Shown one piece after another: positions 24,443 through 31,647 of a stretch of 64,000 nucleotides of DNA. The notes beneath the pieces are model-generated. The model did not search any database. It saw only the letters and a list, made by a program, of their open reading frames with translations, and was not told where the DNA came from. How positions within the stretch are numbered: position 1 is the stretch's first letter; each line of letters starts with the position of its first letter. Origin of the DNA: Leptonema illini DSM 21528. GTDB taxonomy: Bacteria > Spirochaetota > Leptospiria > Leptospirales > Leptonemataceae. Both the position numbers and the translations under genes were made by a program. The stretch covers positions 258,365 through 322,364 of the forward strand of contig NZ_JH597773.1 of NCBI RefSeq assembly GCF_000243335.1, written 5' to 3'.

Positions 24443-25545
24443 TGCGCCGCCTTGCCTTATTACCTCTGCTGGCGGCCTGTATCGCCTGCCATAGCGCCCC
24501 CGACGCCGGGCCCGAAGCTACCGATCCTGCCCCGGTGCACGAATCTCCCGGCATTTCGCAGGGCCGCGCATGGGGCACATCATGGTTTCTCGTCATCGAC
24601 GATACGGTCGAGAAACAGAGAGAGGCCGAAGCGGCGGTAACGAGACGCATTGCACTGTTCACGCAGGTTTTCTCTACCTACGAGACAGAGAGCGAGATCC
24701 AGCGCCTGAACCGCCTGGCGATCGGTGAAGCGGCCTCTGTATCAGGGCCCATGCAGGATGCACTACACCTTTCGCGCGATCTCTGCGAGAAAAGCCACGG
24801 AGCCTTCTGGCCGTCTCTCGGCGATCTGATGATACGAGAAGGCTTTGAGCCCGATGCTCTGTCTACGACACGGCAAAAGACCGAACTCGATCGGCTTGAT
24901 AAACCCGGGCCGGCCTCCTCCGCTCACCTGACTCGTCGAGATTGCACGACGATCGACATAAGAGGCTCCACATTCCGGCGTCGCACCACAGGGCGACTGA
25001 ATCTGAATGCCGTCGCCGAAGGCCTTCTTCTTGATGCCGTGTACGCGGATCTACAGAAGGCCGGAATATCACGCTTCCTCTTTGAATTCGGAGGTGAGAT
25101 GATCGCCGGCGCAGGCCCGGTTTCCAGAACAAAGGTTAACCAGAAATGGAAGGCCGCCATCGAATTGCTGGAAAGCGAAGAAACGGACCGGACGGAGCAG
25201 GAAAACGGTATTGAATCAGGCGGCACAGGCGATTTGTATGTTTTCTATTTTGAAAAGGCCGCCCTCTCTTCGTCGGGCACCTATCGTAACCGAAGAAACG
25301 GAAGATCCCACCTCATCAATCGCAACAATCGGGGCATTCCCGAGCTCAAGGCGGCCTCGGTTCTATGCACGGGGGAGCGAGGCGGCGCCCTTGCCGACGG
25401 GCTGGCCACGACGGCCTCCCTGCTAACGCTTGCGGAGGCGAAGCAGATCCTCGCAGAGTATGCACAGTGCGCTCTCTATTATCAGGCCGAAACGACAGAG
25501 GGCATCATATCCTATCGCTCGCCGCACTGGCCCGAGCGCCATTAA
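24442..25545 (+). CDS. ApbE-like lipoprotein with altered substrate motifs
   Basis: A 367-residue protein related to FAD:protein FMN transferase, the periplasmic enzyme that attaches FMN to flavoproteins. The leader ends in LLAAC or CIAC, so it is probably lipidated. Family features are FSTYETESEIQRLNRL, SHGAFWPSLGDLM and the C-terminal GGALADGLATTAS (Asp retained). Two usually conserved places deviate. The LDLGAIAKG-type loop reads LNLNAVAEG (Lys replaced by Glu), and the HIIDPRTG metal/flavin loop reads HLINRNNRG (Asp-Pro lost). Activity is therefore doubtful. The start ATG overlaps the sppA stop, and its TAA interlocks with the convergent gene's stop (TTAA). Confidence 0.75.
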   Translation: MRRLALLPLLAACIACHSAPDAGPEATDPAPVHESPGISQGRAWGTSWFLVIDDTVEKQREAEAAVTRRIALFTQVFSTYETESEIQRLNRLAIGEAASVSGPMQDALHLSRDLCEKSHGAFWPSLGDLMIREGFEPDALSTTRQKTELDRLDKPGPASSAHLTRRDCTTIDIRGSTFRRRTTGRLNLNAVAEGLLLDAVYADLQKAGISRFLFEFGGEMIAGAGPVSRTKVNQKWKAAIELLESEETDRTEQENGIESGGTGDLYVFYFEKAALSSSGTYRNRRNGRSHLINRNNRGIPELKAASVLCTGERGGALADGLATTASLLTLAEAKQILAEYAQCALYYQAETTEGIISYRSPHWPERH

Positions 25546-28523
25546 AACTGTACGCCAACAGAGAAACGTCCCTGCCACTGTGAGAACGGCAACGTGCGAC
25601 GACCATCATAAGGAGAGGCCCATTCGATCTTCATAAGGGCGCCGGGCATGAGAAACCACAAAAAGTTCGCCCAGTGCAGACCGACGCCGACCGAGGCGCG
25701 CAGGTCGCGGGTACGTCCGTTCTGCCATCCCTGAAAGGTATCGGGATCATCGAAGGCGGCGCCGGCATCCATAAAGATCGAACTGCGAATGAGGCCCGGC
25801 GACCAGCGTGTGGGCACGCCGAAGACGAGCTGCTCGATAAAGGTAAAGCGATACTCCAGGTTAACGACGCCCGCATAACGTCCTTCGAATTCCTGAAAGT
25901 CATAGCCGCGCACCGTGTAATAACCGCCGATACGATACGGATAATCCTTTGCGTCGGCTCCGGTGGCGGCCACGGCAAGGGCGCGAAAGGCGAAGATGGA
26001 GTCGTTCTCGAATAGATGATACAGGCGATATTCAAGCAGATGCTGATAGAGCTCACGCTCCCTGCCCGACGTTCGCAGCGGCGCCTCGGTCATGATCATA
26101 AAGGCCTGGCCGTCCAGAGGGCCATACAGAGAATATACCGTCGAATCATAGAGATAACGCAGTCGCACGCTCTGTCGATTTTTATAGACGTCCTGTCGCT
26201 GGTCCTCTTCGGGATACACAGACCTGTAAGTAAACTCATCGCGGCCCGTCTCGACGCTGAGCTGCACCGATCCGAAAGAATGCAGACGCGCTTCAAGCCA
26301 TCCGATCATGCCCGTCGTCTGTAGCGTGCTCAGGCGATAAAACGGGTTATAGATGATGTTATTCAACGAGAAGTCCATCGGATTGAAGATGGCGAAGACG
26401 CCGCTGTAGCTGTAAACGCCGGCACCGGCCTCCACCCTGTAACGTCGGTAGTGATACCGCAGCTCTCCATTCATATACACGGGCTTTTCCTGATACGACA
26501 GGAAGGCCTCCAGTTCATGATCTCCCTTCAGATCCTGAAAGGCGGCATACCCGAGAAAGGCAACGGCCGAATTCCCCTCCCCGTCGCTTGCTCCCGTTAC
26601 GAAAATAAACGGATAGCCCGTCATCTTCAACCACGGCTGGTACGGGCGGTTGTAATCGACGATCGAATACGGTGTGGCAAACGGCGATACGGGTAACGGC
26701 GGTGAATCGAGCTCGGTTGATACGAGGCCCGCTGTGCTGACGGCAGGCAGTCGCTTCTCTTCGGGATCGGCTCCGCCATAGCGACGATAGAAGGCCGCAT
26801 CGACTGCCGGAGCGGCCATACGATAGATCTCGATCGCTCCTTCTTCGCGACGCGAAAAGACGACCGACTCGCCCCGCTGTGAAGAAACATCGATCTGTAA
26901 AAGGTCGATATTCGAAGCGGTTAACGCCTCAACGTTCTCGCTGCCCGTCTTACCGTCCCTCGTTGCCGTACCACGCAGTCTGTACAGATTGCGCACGCCC
27001 TGATGATCTGATATAAAAAGTACGCTGCCGTCGGTTCCGTGCGAGGGCATCTCCTGACGCCCAGGCATGGCAAGCAATCGTCGAATATTGCCCGATTGCA
27101 GATCGACGCGAAAAAGATCCATATCAGGCTCGATGGCATCTCCGTTACCGCATGAGGCGTAGTCGACGAACAGTCCATCGGGCGTGAAGGAGGGCGTGCT
27201 TTCGCGACACAGATCGTCTGTGAGCGAGCGTATCGAGCCGGAGTCTACGTCCATCACGAAAAGCTCGGTGCGTCCTCTGATCGAACCTACGAAAGCGATA
27301 CGGCTGCCGTCGGGCGAATAGACCGGATCTGAGATGACATCGACAGGCGGAGTGTATAACCGCTCCAGAGATCCGTCACTTATGTCGACGACGGCCAGGG
27401 CCTGACTGCCGCGGTTTCGCGTACCAAAAAGCAATCTTGTACCGTCGGGATGAAACGAGAGCCGCGTCGTAAACGGCTGCCATTCTTCGTAGTCGGCCGA
27501 CTTGAGAAAACGCAGCAGCAATCGTTTTTCGGATTGCTCATCCTCCGATATGCCCGGCCCCGGCAGCCTGCGAATCACGATGGCCGGGAAGATACTGCGA
27601 TAGGTAAGGAAGGCGACGGTGCGCCCGTCCGGAGAAAGAGCCGGCTTATAATGAAATCCGTTTCGATCAAGATAACGAAAGCTCACCTTCTGATAACGCA
27701 GGGATGCTTCGTCATAGGCCTTCGCTTTCGCATATGTGCGCTCCAGATGCAGGCGGTATTCGACGCCGAACTCAAAGAAGTTCATGCCGAACGTAGAACG
27801 AAAGGCCTTATCGAGATGACGCAGAGCGGCCATCTCGCGTAACAGCATACCGATGCGCTCCGGCCCCCATCGGATCGCGATGAAATGCATGATGGACTGC
27901 CCGCCCGGATAATTCATGTAGCCGCCACCTGCAAACTGCAGATCAAACAGATCGGGCATGCGCGAATAAACCATGAGATCCCTTACAACGGAGTCCATGC
28001 CCTGCGTGCCGTTGCTCAGATACTCGGCCATGCCTTCCATCAGCCACAATGGATACGCTCCGTAGTTGCCGCCCAGCATATCGAATTGATAGGCGTGAAC
28101 GATTTCGTGCGCAAGCACATGCCGCAGAGCTTCAAGATCTCCGTTGACGGGAAGAACGACACGTCTCTCAAAAAAATCCGTGAATCCGCCCGTGCCTTCG
28201 TCGATGGCATAAGGCAGTATGTTCGTTGCCTGGAAATCCTGAAATGACGGGTAAAGAAAAACGGGAACGCGACGGCTCAGGTTATGACGCAGAACGCCCT
28301 GCAGTCGATCGGCCGTCTTTTCAGAGATATCGGCGGCAATACGCGCAACATTTAAATAGCCTTCCGGATAATGGATGAAGAAACGATCGGTACGCAACGT
28401 CTTCCATTCGTAATGGCGGGATGGTACCTTGTGCTGAGCCAGAAGCGCGGCTGGAAAACAGAGAGGCAGGATCAGAATCAGCTTTCGCACGAATACGGCA
28501 AATGTGTTGACCTTGCAGGGCAT
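25542..28523 (-). CDS. Metallopeptidase-like / TolB-type propeller / Omp85-like barrel fusion protein
   Basis: A 993-residue exported protein with a signal peptide (about residues 1-28, ending PAALLAQ). First comes a gluzincin-like metallopeptidase domain with HEIVHAYQ and, about 25 residues later, WLMEGMAEYLS supplying a Glu. Next are four or more PD40/WD40-like repeats (SPDGRTVAF, HPDGTRLLF, SPDGSRIAF, TPDGLFVDY). The last 330 or so residues are rich in alternating aromatic strands and contain VRGYDFQEFEG, the VRGY/F motif of the Omp85/surface-antigen barrel, ending with a terminal Phe. The likely site is the outer membrane. The ATG at 28523 puts the signal peptide at the N-terminus. It is divergent, 22 nt apart, from an AsmA-like gene. 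Confidence 0.8.
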   Translation of the reverse strand: MPCKVNTFAVFVRKLILILPLCFPAALLAQHKVPSRHYEWKTLRTDRFFIHYPEGYLNVARIAADISEKTADRLQGVLRHNLSRRVPVFLYPSFQDFQATNILPYAIDEGTGGFTDFFERRVVLPVNGDLEALRHVLAHEIVHAYQFDMLGGNYGAYPLWLMEGMAEYLSNGTQGMDSVVRDLMVYSRMPDLFDLQFAGGGYMNYPGGQSIMHFIAIRWGPERIGMLLREMAALRHLDKAFRSTFGMNFFEFGVEYRLHLERTYAKAKAYDEASLRYQKVSFRYLDRNGFHYKPALSPDGRTVAFLTYRSIFPAIVIRRLPGPGISEDEQSEKRLLLRFLKSADYEEWQPFTTRLSFHPDGTRLLFGTRNRGSQALAVVDISDGSLERLYTPPVDVISDPVYSPDGSRIAFVGSIRGRTELFVMDVDSGSIRSLTDDLCRESTPSFTPDGLFVDYASCGNGDAIEPDMDLFRVDLQSGNIRRLLAMPGRQEMPSHGTDGSVLFISDHQGVRNLYRLRGTATRDGKTGSENVEALTASNIDLLQIDVSSQRGESVVFSRREEGAIEIYRMAAPAVDAAFYRRYGGADPEEKRLPAVSTAGLVSTELDSPPLPVSPFATPYSIVDYNRPYQPWLKMTGYPFIFVTGASDGEGNSAVAFLGYAAFQDLKGDHELEAFLSYQEKPVYMNGELRYHYRRYRVEAGAGVYSYSGVFAIFNPMDFSLNNIIYNPFYRLSTLQTTGMIGWLEARLHSFGSVQLSVETGRDEFTYRSVYPEEDQRQDVYKNRQSVRLRYLYDSTVYSLYGPLDGQAFMIMTEAPLRTSGRERELYQHLLEYRLYHLFENDSIFAFRALAVAATGADAKDYPYRIGGYYTVRGYDFQEFEGRYAGVVNLEYRFTFIEQLVFGVPTRWSPGLIRSSIFMDAGAAFDDPDTFQGWQNGRTRDLRASVGVGLHWANFLWFLMPGALMKIEWASPYDGRRTLPFSQWQGRFSVGVQF

Positions 28524-28545
28524 GAGAGGACTGTTTTCCCGAACA

Positions 28546-30702
28546 ATGAAAAAGAAATGGATTCCGGTCGTTCTCCTGTCAATCGCAGCAGCAAGTATCG
28601 CAGCATTTTTCGCGACGGCGAAGCTGATTGAAAACCGCATCGTCGATGCCGGAGTAATCAACACCGAGACCCGGCTGATAGAAGAGAAAGCCGGCCTCTC
28701 TTTGAAATACGGAAATGCCCATTACGATATCTTTCGCGGTCTCGTTCTTACAGGCGTTCATATCGCCGAACGCGCTGAAAAGGGAGAGAACGTCGTCTTC
28801 AGTTCAGGCCAGGCCATCTTTCAGTTCCCTCTGCTTGAGCTGCTTCGCGGCAACGTCACGCCCTCACGCCTGATTCTTATCGAAGGGCGTATGAATCTAT
28901 CGGGCAAATCCGACCCGCGCAATAGAATAGAAAAGCTCATCGCCTTCCTCAAACACACCTCGCTCGATCTGGAATGGCGAGATGTGCAGATCGACGGCTT
29001 GAAAGACAGCGCCGATTTCGCGGCAAAAGACGTGCGGCTTGCCGGCACACTCATCGTCCGAGACATGGAAACGCCCGCGCTGCGCCTTGCCGTCGAATTC
29101 CGCGACGACGATGTTTTCAAGATTCAAGGAAGCTGGAAGTCCGCTCCCATGGAACGACTTTTTGTAAGAGTGGAAAGCATGCCGGTGCGTCTGCCCCATC
29201 TATGGATGGCGAGCTTTCCCTATCTTCCCGCCGACGCCGATCTGCGCTGGAAAGAAGGCGTCATCAACGCCGAAGGCTCCATCGACCTGACCGAAGAAGG
29301 CTATGCCTTTCATCTGCGCGGAGCCTTCAAGCATCTGCAGTTCTCGATTCCCGATACGGGATTCGAGGCGAGAGATCTCGACGGAAGCTTTGATCAGATG
29401 ATCGTCGGTTCTTACGCCACAGGCATGCTCAATTCGCGACTCAACGTTCGCAATCCTCTGATCGAACATTCGGCCGAACTGGACAGAGATGCGAAAACGG
29501 GCGTCGACGAAGCTCGCTTTAAAGGCAAGCTCAATCTGCGCGAAAGCGAAAACCTCAAGCTTCCTCCGTTTGTGAAATCGGCCACGATCGAATACGCCGT
29601 CGGCCTACAGATCAGGCGACTTCGCGACCGAGAAGCGTTAGCCCCAGACGTGAAGATCACCATTCGCAATCTGAAAATGGATTTCGGCGATCAGTGGAAG
29701 TCGCTTGCTCCCATTCATGTGGATGAGGCGACGCTTGTCGGTTCGAGCCGCATCGCCGTAAATGTTCCTGGTCGTATCGGCACGGTGCCCTTTCAGTTCA
29801 CGGCATCGATTCAGCCCGATCTGTTTAAAACATCTTCGGATGGCATCATCTTCAAGCATCAATCCGAATTCCAGCTCGATATCGACGAGATGTCGATTGA
29901 AGATGCAATCCATCGTACAGGCGTATTCGTTGACGACCTGCGCCGTTACGTAAGCGGCCCCGACGCCGTGAAATCCGAAGACTTCGGGCCCGTTTGGGAG
30001 AATAAGTTTATCCAGAATCCGCGCTTTCGCAAATACTTCGAACAGGCGATCATCAACGGACAGATACGCGTTCTGAAAATCAGCGACGCATCGCCCGATA
30101 TGCCTTCCTCTCTACAGTTCCAATTCAGGCATCGCATCCCTTCGACCGAGCTCACGATGGTTCGTCCGGACGGCTTCAACATGAGCGCCCATTATCGCAT
30201 CTTCTACGATGCGGCGCTGCCGTCGCATGACGCTCGCTTTGAGGTGAACTACAGCGGAGCCGGCTATCGCAGTCGCCTATTCACCGATCCGGGACTTGAA
30301 GTCGATCCTCTTGAATCCCTCGAATTCAAATACACCTTCCAGGCCGAAGGGTTATACCTGGCCGACCTTTATTATAAGAGCCTGACGGGGCTTTTTATCA
30401 AGGCAAAGCATGTTCCCGTTCAAAAGGACTATCGCCTTGATCTGCTTCTGCGTTTGATGGAGCTTGATCCCGGACGGCTGCGATACGTGGACTTCGACAT
30501 CCAGCGTCACAGCTCGGGATCGCTTTTCAAACCGCTTATCGTTCGCATCGACGGCGATGAGGCGTCGCTGATCGGCAACGGCGAGTTCAACATCTACGAA
30601 GGCGGCCTGTTGCAATTCAACTACTTCATGAAATCAAACGGTCGACAGAATCGCTTCAGTATTCGCATTCGCCCCGACCAGGTATGGATACCCTCGTCAT
30701 GA
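28546..30702 (+). CDS. AsmA/TamB-like inner-membrane-anchored periplasmic protein
   Basis: A 718-residue protein with one N-terminal membrane anchor (about residues 5-25) and a long beta-rich remainder. The segment after the anchor has the AsmA/TamB-type order: a TGL-like KAGLSLKYGNA strand, then GLVLTGVHI, a FSSGQAIFQFPLLELLRGN stretch, then PSRLILIEGRMNL. In known members this N-terminal pattern begins a hydrophobic groove that carries lipids or supports barrel assembly. Assignment to the superfamily is from pattern, not a full alignment. The ATG at 28546 is chosen because the anchor begins there (MKKKW). The next gene starts inside its stop (ATGA). Confidence 0.65.
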   Translation: MKKKWIPVVLLSIAAASIAAFFATAKLIENRIVDAGVINTETRLIEEKAGLSLKYGNAHYDIFRGLVLTGVHIAERAEKGENVVFSSGQAIFQFPLLELLRGNVTPSRLILIEGRMNLSGKSDPRNRIEKLIAFLKHTSLDLEWRDVQIDGLKDSADFAAKDVRLAGTLIVRDMETPALRLAVEFRDDDVFKIQGSWKSAPMERLFVRVESMPVRLPHLWMASFPYLPADADLRWKEGVINAEGSIDLTEEGYAFHLRGAFKHLQFSIPDTGFEARDLDGSFDQMIVGSYATGMLNSRLNVRNPLIEHSAELDRDAKTGVDEARFKGKLNLRESENLKLPPFVKSATIEYAVGLQIRRLRDREALAPDVKITIRNLKMDFGDQWKSLAPIHVDEATLVGSSRIAVNVPGRIGTVPFQFTASIQPDLFKTSSDGIIFKHQSEFQLDIDEMSIEDAIHRTGVFVDDLRRYVSGPDAVKSEDFGPVWENKFIQNPRFRKYFEQAIINGQIRVLKISDASPDMPSSLQFQFRHRIPSTELTMVRPDGFNMSAHYRIFYDAALPSHDARFEVNYSGAGYRSRLFTDPGLEVDPLESLEFKYTFQAEGLYLADLYYKSLTGLFIKAKHVPVQKDYRLDLLLRLMELDPGRLRYVDFDIQRHSSGSLFKPLIVRIDGDEASLIGNGEFNIYEGGLLQFNYFMKSNGRQNRFSIRIRPDQVWIPSS

Positions 30703-31061
30703 AAAAGATCATTTTCTTAACTTTAACGCTCATCCTTGTTAACGCCTGCAGTCGCCCTTCTGACGTCGACGACCGCTCTGAAGAGTTCGCACCGGGCAAG
30801 GAGCTGGCAGGAACGTATGCGCTTCAGCCAGCTTACGTTAACGAGAGCATCGACATCACCGCCGAAGGTAAGGTGCGGTACCGCAAGGCCGACGCAGCGA
30901 CTCGCGAAGGTCTGGCTTATAGAAATCGATTTCGGTTGATTATTTTTCTTGATGACGAGACAGAACCCACCGGTATATTTATGCTGAATGACCGAAATCC
31001 CGAACGGTGGCCAGGCTTCTGGAAGGGAGAGGTGCGGTTCATTCAGTTGAAGGCGAACTGA
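30699..31061 (+). CDS. Small lipoprotein coupled to the AsmA-like gene
   Basis: A 120-residue protein with leader MKKIIFLTLTLILVNAC; VNAC is a clear lipobox (Cys17). The mature part is about 100 residues of probable beta structure (KELAGTYALQP, IDITAEGKVRYRK, WKGEVRFIQLK), resembling a small lipocalin-like or META-type fold. This resemblance is weak. Its ATG overlaps the stop of the AsmA-like gene (ATGA at 30699-30702), so it is translated with it and is a likely partner. No function is recognised. Confidence 0.75.
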   Translation: MKKIIFLTLTLILVNACSRPSDVDDRSEEFAPGKELAGTYALQPAYVNESIDITAEGKVRYRKADAATREGLAYRNRFRLIIFLDDETEPTGIFMLNDRNPERWPGFWKGEVRFIQLKAN

Positions 31062-31137
31062 TTGCAAAAAGTGCAGTTTTTTTTATAAAGGATGCATAGG
31101 ATTCAAATTCCGATGTTTTTTGTCTTCCGGGCCTATG

Positions 31138-31165
31138 TTGATAGGAATGCTCGGTTGCATAATAT
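31138..31165 (+). promoter_or_regulatory. Probable promoter of the XRE regulator gene
   Basis: TTGATA (31138-31143) and TAATAT (31160-31165) are separated by 16 nt. They lie 45 nt upstream of the ATG at 31210 in an AT-rich stretch. Confidence 0.55.
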
Positions 31166-31209
31166 GCAAGTTCGCTGCCTTTGAAGCCATTCGTCGACGG
31201 GAGACCGAT

Positions 31210-31647
31210 ATGGAAACAGGCTACGATACAACGCTCGGGCGCATTGGGGAGCGAATCCGCACGTTTCGAAAAAGTCGGGGACTTCGCATGAAGGATCTGG
31301 CCGCCGACCTGCTGGAGCGCCAGGGAGTGCAGATCGGCGAAAGCATGATCTCACGCATCGAAAACGGTCAGACGGAGCTGCGACTCGGGAACCTGCATGC
31401 GATCGCCGCCGCTCTGAACGTCGACGTCTCTGAGCTGCTGCGGCTGCCCGCTCCTGACCACCATCCGCTGGGAGTACTCGACGATCCACGGCTGCTTTAC
31501 AGGGTAAGACAGCTAAGGGCCCTGCTCACCGATGAGCAGATCCGCATCTCCCTCATTCAGTTCATCGATCTGCTTCTTTTAATGGAAGATGAGAGCACAA
31601 AGAAGAAGCCAAAGAAGGACTCGGACGACGAAGAAGACGAAGGCTGA
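31210..31647 (+). CDS. XRE-family helix-turn-helix regulator
   Basis: A 145-residue transcription regulator. Residues 8-70 form a Cro/CI-type HTH (IGERIRTFRKSRGLRMKDLA, then GESMISRIENGQTE and LHAIAAALNVDVSELL). A helical region follows, and the Lys/Asp/Glu-rich tail (KKKPKKDSDDEEDEG) is disordered. The ATG at 31210 is preceded by GGGAGA with good spacing. In-frame codons upstream to 31120 cross the promoter and are unlikely to be translated. The target is unknown; it is followed by a Nudix gene with its own promoter. Confidence 0.85.
   Translation: METGYDTTLGRIGERIRTFRKSRGLRMKDLAADLLERQGVQIGESMISRIENGQTELRLGNLHAIAAALNVDVSELLRLPAPDHHPLGVLDDPRLLYRVRQLRALLTDEQIRISLIQFIDLLLLMEDESTKKKPKKDSDDEEDEG

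Follow-up and report, generated by a model that had tools for sequence, protein, structure and literature searches.

A POTRA-less Omp85 barrel protein with metallopeptidase and propeller domains, encoded back to back with an AsmA-like protein: a candidate envelope-building module in Leptonema illini

The stretch of Leptonema illini DNA analysed here (64,000 nt, hereafter the window) contains a pair of divergent genes, one for an Omp85-type outer-membrane protein and the other for a putative periplasm-spanning bridge protein, the latter followed by the genes of a small lipoprotein and a regulator. The features of the locus are as follows:

25542..28523, minus strand: barrel gene, outer-membrane protein of 993 aa (signal peptide, metallopeptidase, propeller, Omp85 barrel; WD40-Omp85 subfamily)
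25545..26609, minus strand: 16-strand Omp85 barrel, residues 639-993, with C-terminal Phe (PF01103, 3.7e-8; strand count; BamA match)
25902..25913, minus strand: VRGY loop motif, residues 871-874 (R872, G873 and Y874 invariant in 16 members)
26814..27656, minus strand: TolB-like PD40 beta-propeller, residues 290-570 (PD40, 3.6e-14; TolB by sequence and fold)
27654..28406, minus strand: Peptidase MA/gluzincin-like domain, residues 40-290 (Peptidase_MA_2, 1.6e-5)
28035-28037, minus strand: third zinc ligand, E163 (invariant in 16 family members)
28095..28109, minus strand: HEIVH zinc motif, H139-E140-H143 (invariant in 16 family members)
28524..28545, no strand: gap of 22 nt between the divergent start codons, both ATG
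28546..30702, plus strand: AsmA-superfamily-like bridge protein with an N-terminal membrane helix and an amphipathic groove of ~34 strands (AF2, fold search, amphipathicity)
28558..28647, plus strand: membrane-anchor helix, model residues 13-42 numbered from the alternative ATG at 28522 (AF2 model)
30684..31061, plus strand: small lipoprotein, its translation coupled to that of the bridge protein (19-nt overlap; lipobox Cys)
31120..31647, plus strand: XRE-type regulator (HTH_3, 3e-10; homologues adjoin the bridge-lipoprotein genes in seven relatives)

The barrel gene was assigned to start at ATG 28523, from which the product has a good signal peptide; the ORF list begins it at GTG 28664, a start rejected as overlong. 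Both the propeller repeats and the Omp85 domain of its product score above the Pfam gathering thresholds, and TolB chains match the propeller by sequence (best 1.4e-23) as well as by fold (Foldseek). The AF2 model (mean pLDDT 76) has sixteen barrel strands at residues 639-992, for which the BamA barrel is a Foldseek match (TM 0.62), and the terminal Phe is invariant too in the 16-member alignment. No POTRA family match was obtained for this protein, residues 40-570 of the model being made up of the peptidase and the propeller. The barrel protein is a POTRA-less Omp85 of the WD40-Omp85 subfamily, in which a protease and a propeller take the position of POTRA domains.

The peptidase domain adopts a helical fold in the model and matches Peptidase_MA_2 below the gathering threshold here; orthologues that belong to other families of the class exceed it (1.2e-10 and 2.3e-12). 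The HExxH motif with a downstream Glu ligand, a feature of Peptidase MA/gluzincin enzymes, is present: H139, E140, H143 and E163 are invariant in 16 of 16 aligned family members. E163 is also found in 79 of 80 more distant relatives and lies outside the two patterns by which this distant set was retrieved, one of which was HExxH, so that the conservation of HExxH itself in the set is inflated. As judged from these residues, the protein carries an intact catalytic site of a gluzincin-type HEIVH...E metallopeptidase and is predicted to be proteolytic; no member is known to us to have been assayed for activity. The same genome encodes a second protein with the motif HEYVH (L229:6321-9329; C1 about 1405320), of 1002 aa and with no Pfam domain, which weakly matches the barrel family profile in its N-terminal part. 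Its gene directly follows an apparent methionyl-tRNA synthetase gene, and similar proteins occur in several relatives (e.g. L076-L078, L080, L233).

The AF2 model of the bridge protein (mean pLDDT 82) consists of an N-terminal membrane helix and ~34 strands forming a long sheet, whose best PDB fold match is LPD-3/BLTP1 (9cap_A; 3e-10, probability 1.00). Averaged over the family, its strands alternate between hydrophobic and polar residues far beyond shuffled sequences (z 8.2), as expected of a greasy groove; by the same measure the membrane barrel scores z 2.9 and the propeller shows no alternation. The characteristic trait of AsmA/bridge-like proteins, a membrane-anchored long amphipathic beta groove, is present according to model, fold search and alternation alike. 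Sequence comparison contributed a Pfam match to DUF748 (3e-4, below cut-off), a match to YhdP in one relative (0.048) and an hhalign match to E. coli AsmA 30-109, between the N-terminal domains (E 4.6e-4, probability only 33%); hhalign against TamB, YdbH, YhdP and YicH returned nothing reliable. By its modelled fold, on which the assignment rests, the neighbour of the minus-strand barrel is AsmA-superfamily-like and of the bridge-like lipid-transfer type. Two closer identifications were rejected by sequence. As a TamB, the protein would be without PF04357, without a barrel-like C-terminus and without a TamB profile match; its C-terminus is of a conserved G-x-W-x-P type with a polar end, E. coli TamB ending in QFEF, and no outer-membrane-type C-terminal strand was found in the 17-sequence alignment. 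As a YdbH, it gave an hhalign E of 0.24 (probability 0.3%) and no YdbH-type Pfam match.

Most of what the initial annotation had read from this locus was borne out. The union of a metallopeptidase-like HEIVH domain, a PD40 propeller and a VRGY barrel in one protein is seen by Pfam, alignment, AF2 and Foldseek; the C-terminal domain, whose fold had been singled out for checking, is modelled as a 16-strand Omp85 barrel; the bridge gene does lie 22 nt away on the other strand; and the fold match and the 19-nt overlap agree with a membrane-anchored, beta-rich AsmA-like protein coupled to a small lipoprotein. The confident hits anticipated for Omp85 and AsmA/TamB were obtained for Omp85, while the AsmA-like half came by fold (LPD-3/BLTP1) and a TamB match did not appear.

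The bridge gene shares its last 19 nt with the lipoprotein gene, which lies directly 3' of it in most relatives, a coupling that counts in favour of a functional module; the lipobox Cys22 is invariant in 15 of 15 aligned sequences. An XRE-type regulator, at times two, is likewise kept beside the bridge-lipoprotein genes in several relatives and is a possible regulator of the cluster. At the other end, the latest possible divergent starts in relatives are separated by no more than 55 nt, and several relatives have coding regions that must overlap. With the starts of the barrel and bridge genes nearly back to back (28504-28560, and in relatives), their expression must be coupled, the promoters lying inside the opposite gene or the transcripts being leaderless or overlapping.

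The two genes are divergent and adjacent in 17 of the 17 family genomes that hold both (8 genera), even though the bridge proteins share only about 18-22% identity (17 sequences aligned) and the other neighbours of the pair vary; we count this persistence in favour of the module. Several of the compared genomes are fragmented assemblies: one gene of the pair is cut by a contig end in G006 and G019, and in G002 and G007 fragments of the bridge gene occur at contig ends. Both genes are missing from G003 and G010. Against a module stands G008 (genome 89% complete), which has the bridge gene with no barrel detected. The G008 bridge gene (L071:5069-8768) is located between genes of phosphodiesterase/sulfatase type and UvrD-helicase type.

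Adjacency had been expected across Leptospirales, and this expectation held within the family and failed for the order: no barrel was found in Leptospiraceae, so that the pair is not general in Leptospirales. One Leptospiraceae genome (L228:1-3451) has a bridge fragment and the lipoprotein without the barrel, and no bridge gene stood beside the barrel at the loci inspected in four other families of the class; both observations argue against the module. The L228 fragment and lipoprotein adjoin lpxB and lpxI, genes of lipid A synthesis. Very long TolB-like PD40-repeat proteins (~2,500-2,750 aa) are encoded at L082 (G024) and other Leptospiraceae loci; they were rejected as barrel orthologues, as they match in the PD40 repeats only. 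A CDP-alcohol phosphatidyltransferase is part of the bridge cluster in ten relatives from 5 genera, which favours the module and points, if only indirectly, to phospholipid transport, whereas the absence of pgsA from the bridge cluster in the window counts against it. The best equivalog match of the phosphatidyltransferase is pgsA, below that model's own cut-off, and recA follows the pgsA-type gene in most of the ten.

The BamA of the L. illini genome, with five POTRA domains, is encoded at another site, next to ABC-transporter and lpxK genes, and no TamB gene adjoins it. No PF04357 TamB was found by profile in this genome, nor above cut-off in any of the good-quality genomes of the order, unlike in Borrelia. 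With BamA elsewhere and no such TamB in the genome, the AsmA-like protein may be a main bridge. A third Omp85-like barrel (L075:6303-7706; ~467 aa, Omp85 match just below cut-off), with no recognisable N-terminal domains, is encoded upstream of a gene of CsgG/LpoB type that includes a DUF4384 domain.

Beyond the class, the barrel family is widespread (Spirochaetes, Calditrichota, Eisenbacteria, Gemmatimonadota, Acidobacteria, Bacteroidota and more). AsmA-superfamily neighbours of WD40-Omp85 loci were sought at the best 80 loci of one scan and in two classes. When 114 neighbours of the barrel in other phyla were scanned broadly with Pfam, no partner common to them emerged, these immediate neighbours being mostly unrelated (which counts against the module); TamB was found in two. 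Traced on to Eisenbacteria, the occurrence of TamB proved to be a pattern of that group. The barrel is present in 46 of 47 genomes of the Eisenbacteria class, and in 20 of these 46 it lies directly 3' of a canonical tamB in the same orientation, with 98-271 nt separating the profile matches, again in favour of the module. In G048 the order is M50 protease, POTRA Omp85 (POTRA domains confirmed), TamB and protease-propeller barrel, the genes of the last two overlapping by 13 nt; by position, G050 has the same order of Omp85, TamB and barrel. The tamB pairing indicates that the association of the barrel with AsmA-superfamily bridges extends beyond a single lineage. The presence of another Omp85 in the tamB clusters of G048 and G050, the two genomes inspected, indicates that the barrel is there added to a TamA-type protein and does not replace it. 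A simple replacement of TamA was rejected on this ground; the barrel is a partner of bridge proteins and not a straightforward TamA substitute.

These observations tilt us, by a little, towards reading the locus as one envelope-building module, composed of a lipid bridge, a lipoprotein cap and a specialised outer-membrane barrel partner. The barrel and the bridge probably build the outer membrane together; physical contact between them, lipid as the cargo and what the protease cuts are parts of the scheme that we infer. In this scheme, the AsmA-like protein, anchored in the inner membrane, would carry phospholipid through the periplasm in its hydrophobic groove, and the small lipoprotein would cap the outer-membrane end of the bridge, in the way that YnbE caps YdbH. 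The Omp85 barrel protein would be the outer-membrane partner, its barrel thinning or opening the membrane to receive lipid, or else helping proteins to fold, and the TolB-like propeller would offer a periplasmic docking surface in place of POTRA domains. The metallopeptidase may remove or regulate stalled components, a role that BepA has towards other assembly machines.

Divergent genes can share merely a promoter, which counts against the module, and adjacency is not contact. Along these lines, the barrel protein could be a free-standing outer-membrane quality-control protease or assembly helper next to an independent AsmA-like lipid bridge, the adjacency reflecting no more than a shared bidirectional start region and common regulation. 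We regard this as a serious alternative with a clearly smaller likelihood. The coupled expression expected from near back-to-back starts would fit it, as do four families of the class in which the barrel lacks an AsmA neighbour, the AsmA-like protein without a barrel in G008 and the unrelated neighbours of the barrel in most other phyla. On the other hand, the co-directional placement of the barrel beside tamB in 20 genomes of a distant class cannot be explained by a shared divergent promoter.

The initial annotation had suggested a spirochete analogue of TamA/TamB, and its main inference is partly supported, with more in its favour (the tamB pairing in Eisenbacteria among it) than could be read from the letters. 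The replacement of POTRA by a protease-propeller and the AsmA-like groove neighbour stand; the identity with TamB and the role of a TamA substitute do not. A true TAM equivalent, in which the barrel and the AsmA-like protein insert outer-membrane proteins through a hybrid barrel as TamA/TamB do, would agree with the adjacency of genes for an Omp85 barrel and an inner-membrane-anchored groove protein in a genome lacking TamB, and a TamAB hybrid barrel is known (PMC12800296). It seems improbable to us in view of the lack of POTRA domains in the barrel protein, the G-x-W-x-P type of C-terminus in place of an outer-membrane-type strand in the AsmA-like protein, the lack of a TamB profile match and the additional Omp85 in the inspected clusters with a real TamB. 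Less likely still, and by our estimate very improbable, is that the barrel exports the protease and propeller of the same protein to the cell surface, in the manner proposed for the patatin-like PlpD. The protein is indeed a non-POTRA Omp85 with an enzymatic N-terminal part, for which surface delivery has been discussed (PMC4104836), but this part is periplasmic in Omp85 proteins of known structure, the TolB-like propeller is a periplasmic fold, and self-secretion would leave the pairing with periplasm-spanning bridges unexplained.

If the module is taken one step further, POTRA-less Omp85 proteins with a metallopeptidase and a TolB-like propeller might form a further class of outer-membrane terminus for AsmA-type bridges, recruited to two unrelated ones (AsmA-like/lipoprotein in L. 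illini and TamB in Eisenbacteria). Their protease would then control how the bridge is assembled or clear clients that have stalled; we put this forward tentatively, as a generalisation that may well not hold. It bears on the route of phospholipid to and into the outer membrane and on the nature of the outer-membrane end of AsmA-type bridges, and the pairing hints at a way in which the outer membrane could be supplied in spirochetes that lack TamB.

Among known systems, YdbH-YnbE of E. coli, described as a phospholipid intermembrane bridge (Kumar et al. 2024, as cited in PMC11784454 and PMC12977461), is alike in having an AsmA-type bridge in the inner membrane and, for a small outer-membrane lipoprotein, a gene that overlaps the bridge gene (by 4 nt, versus 19 nt here). 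It differs in that the bridge protein here has no sequence match to YdbH, the lipoprotein is about twice as long as YnbE and a barrel-protease gene lies opposite. The closest solved fold, LPD-3/BLTP1 (PDB 9cap), belongs to a eukaryotic, much longer protein with no detectable sequence relation to the bridge protein. TamB pairs with BamA, TamA or TamL (PMC4494059). TamA-TamB (TAM) and TamL-TamB resemble the present pair in that an Omp85 barrel gene stands beside that of an inner-membrane-anchored groove protein, whereas here the pair is devoid of POTRA and of a TamB domain, is divergent and not co-directional, and has a protease and a propeller added. The BamA-TamB hybrid known in Borrelia (PMC13382580) likewise joins a spirochete Omp85 with an AsmA-superfamily protein; its Omp85 is the POTRA-bearing BamA itself, which in L. 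illini is encoded apart from the pair. Finally, the architecture of the barrel protein is already catalogued: a study of 2014 gave Omp85 proteins that lack POTRA and bear a propeller the name WD40-Omp85, with no function tested, and compared them to BamA fused with BamB (PMC4104836). They share the TolB-like propeller that replaces POTRA before the Omp85 barrel; the main text of that study does not mention a peptidase domain and describes no AsmA/TamB partner, and the literature searched, with few subscription papers covered, gave no account of the peptidase domain or of a pairing of WD40-Omp85 with AsmA or TamB. The occurrence of this barrel family with two different bridges gives WD40-Omp85 proteins a testable role.
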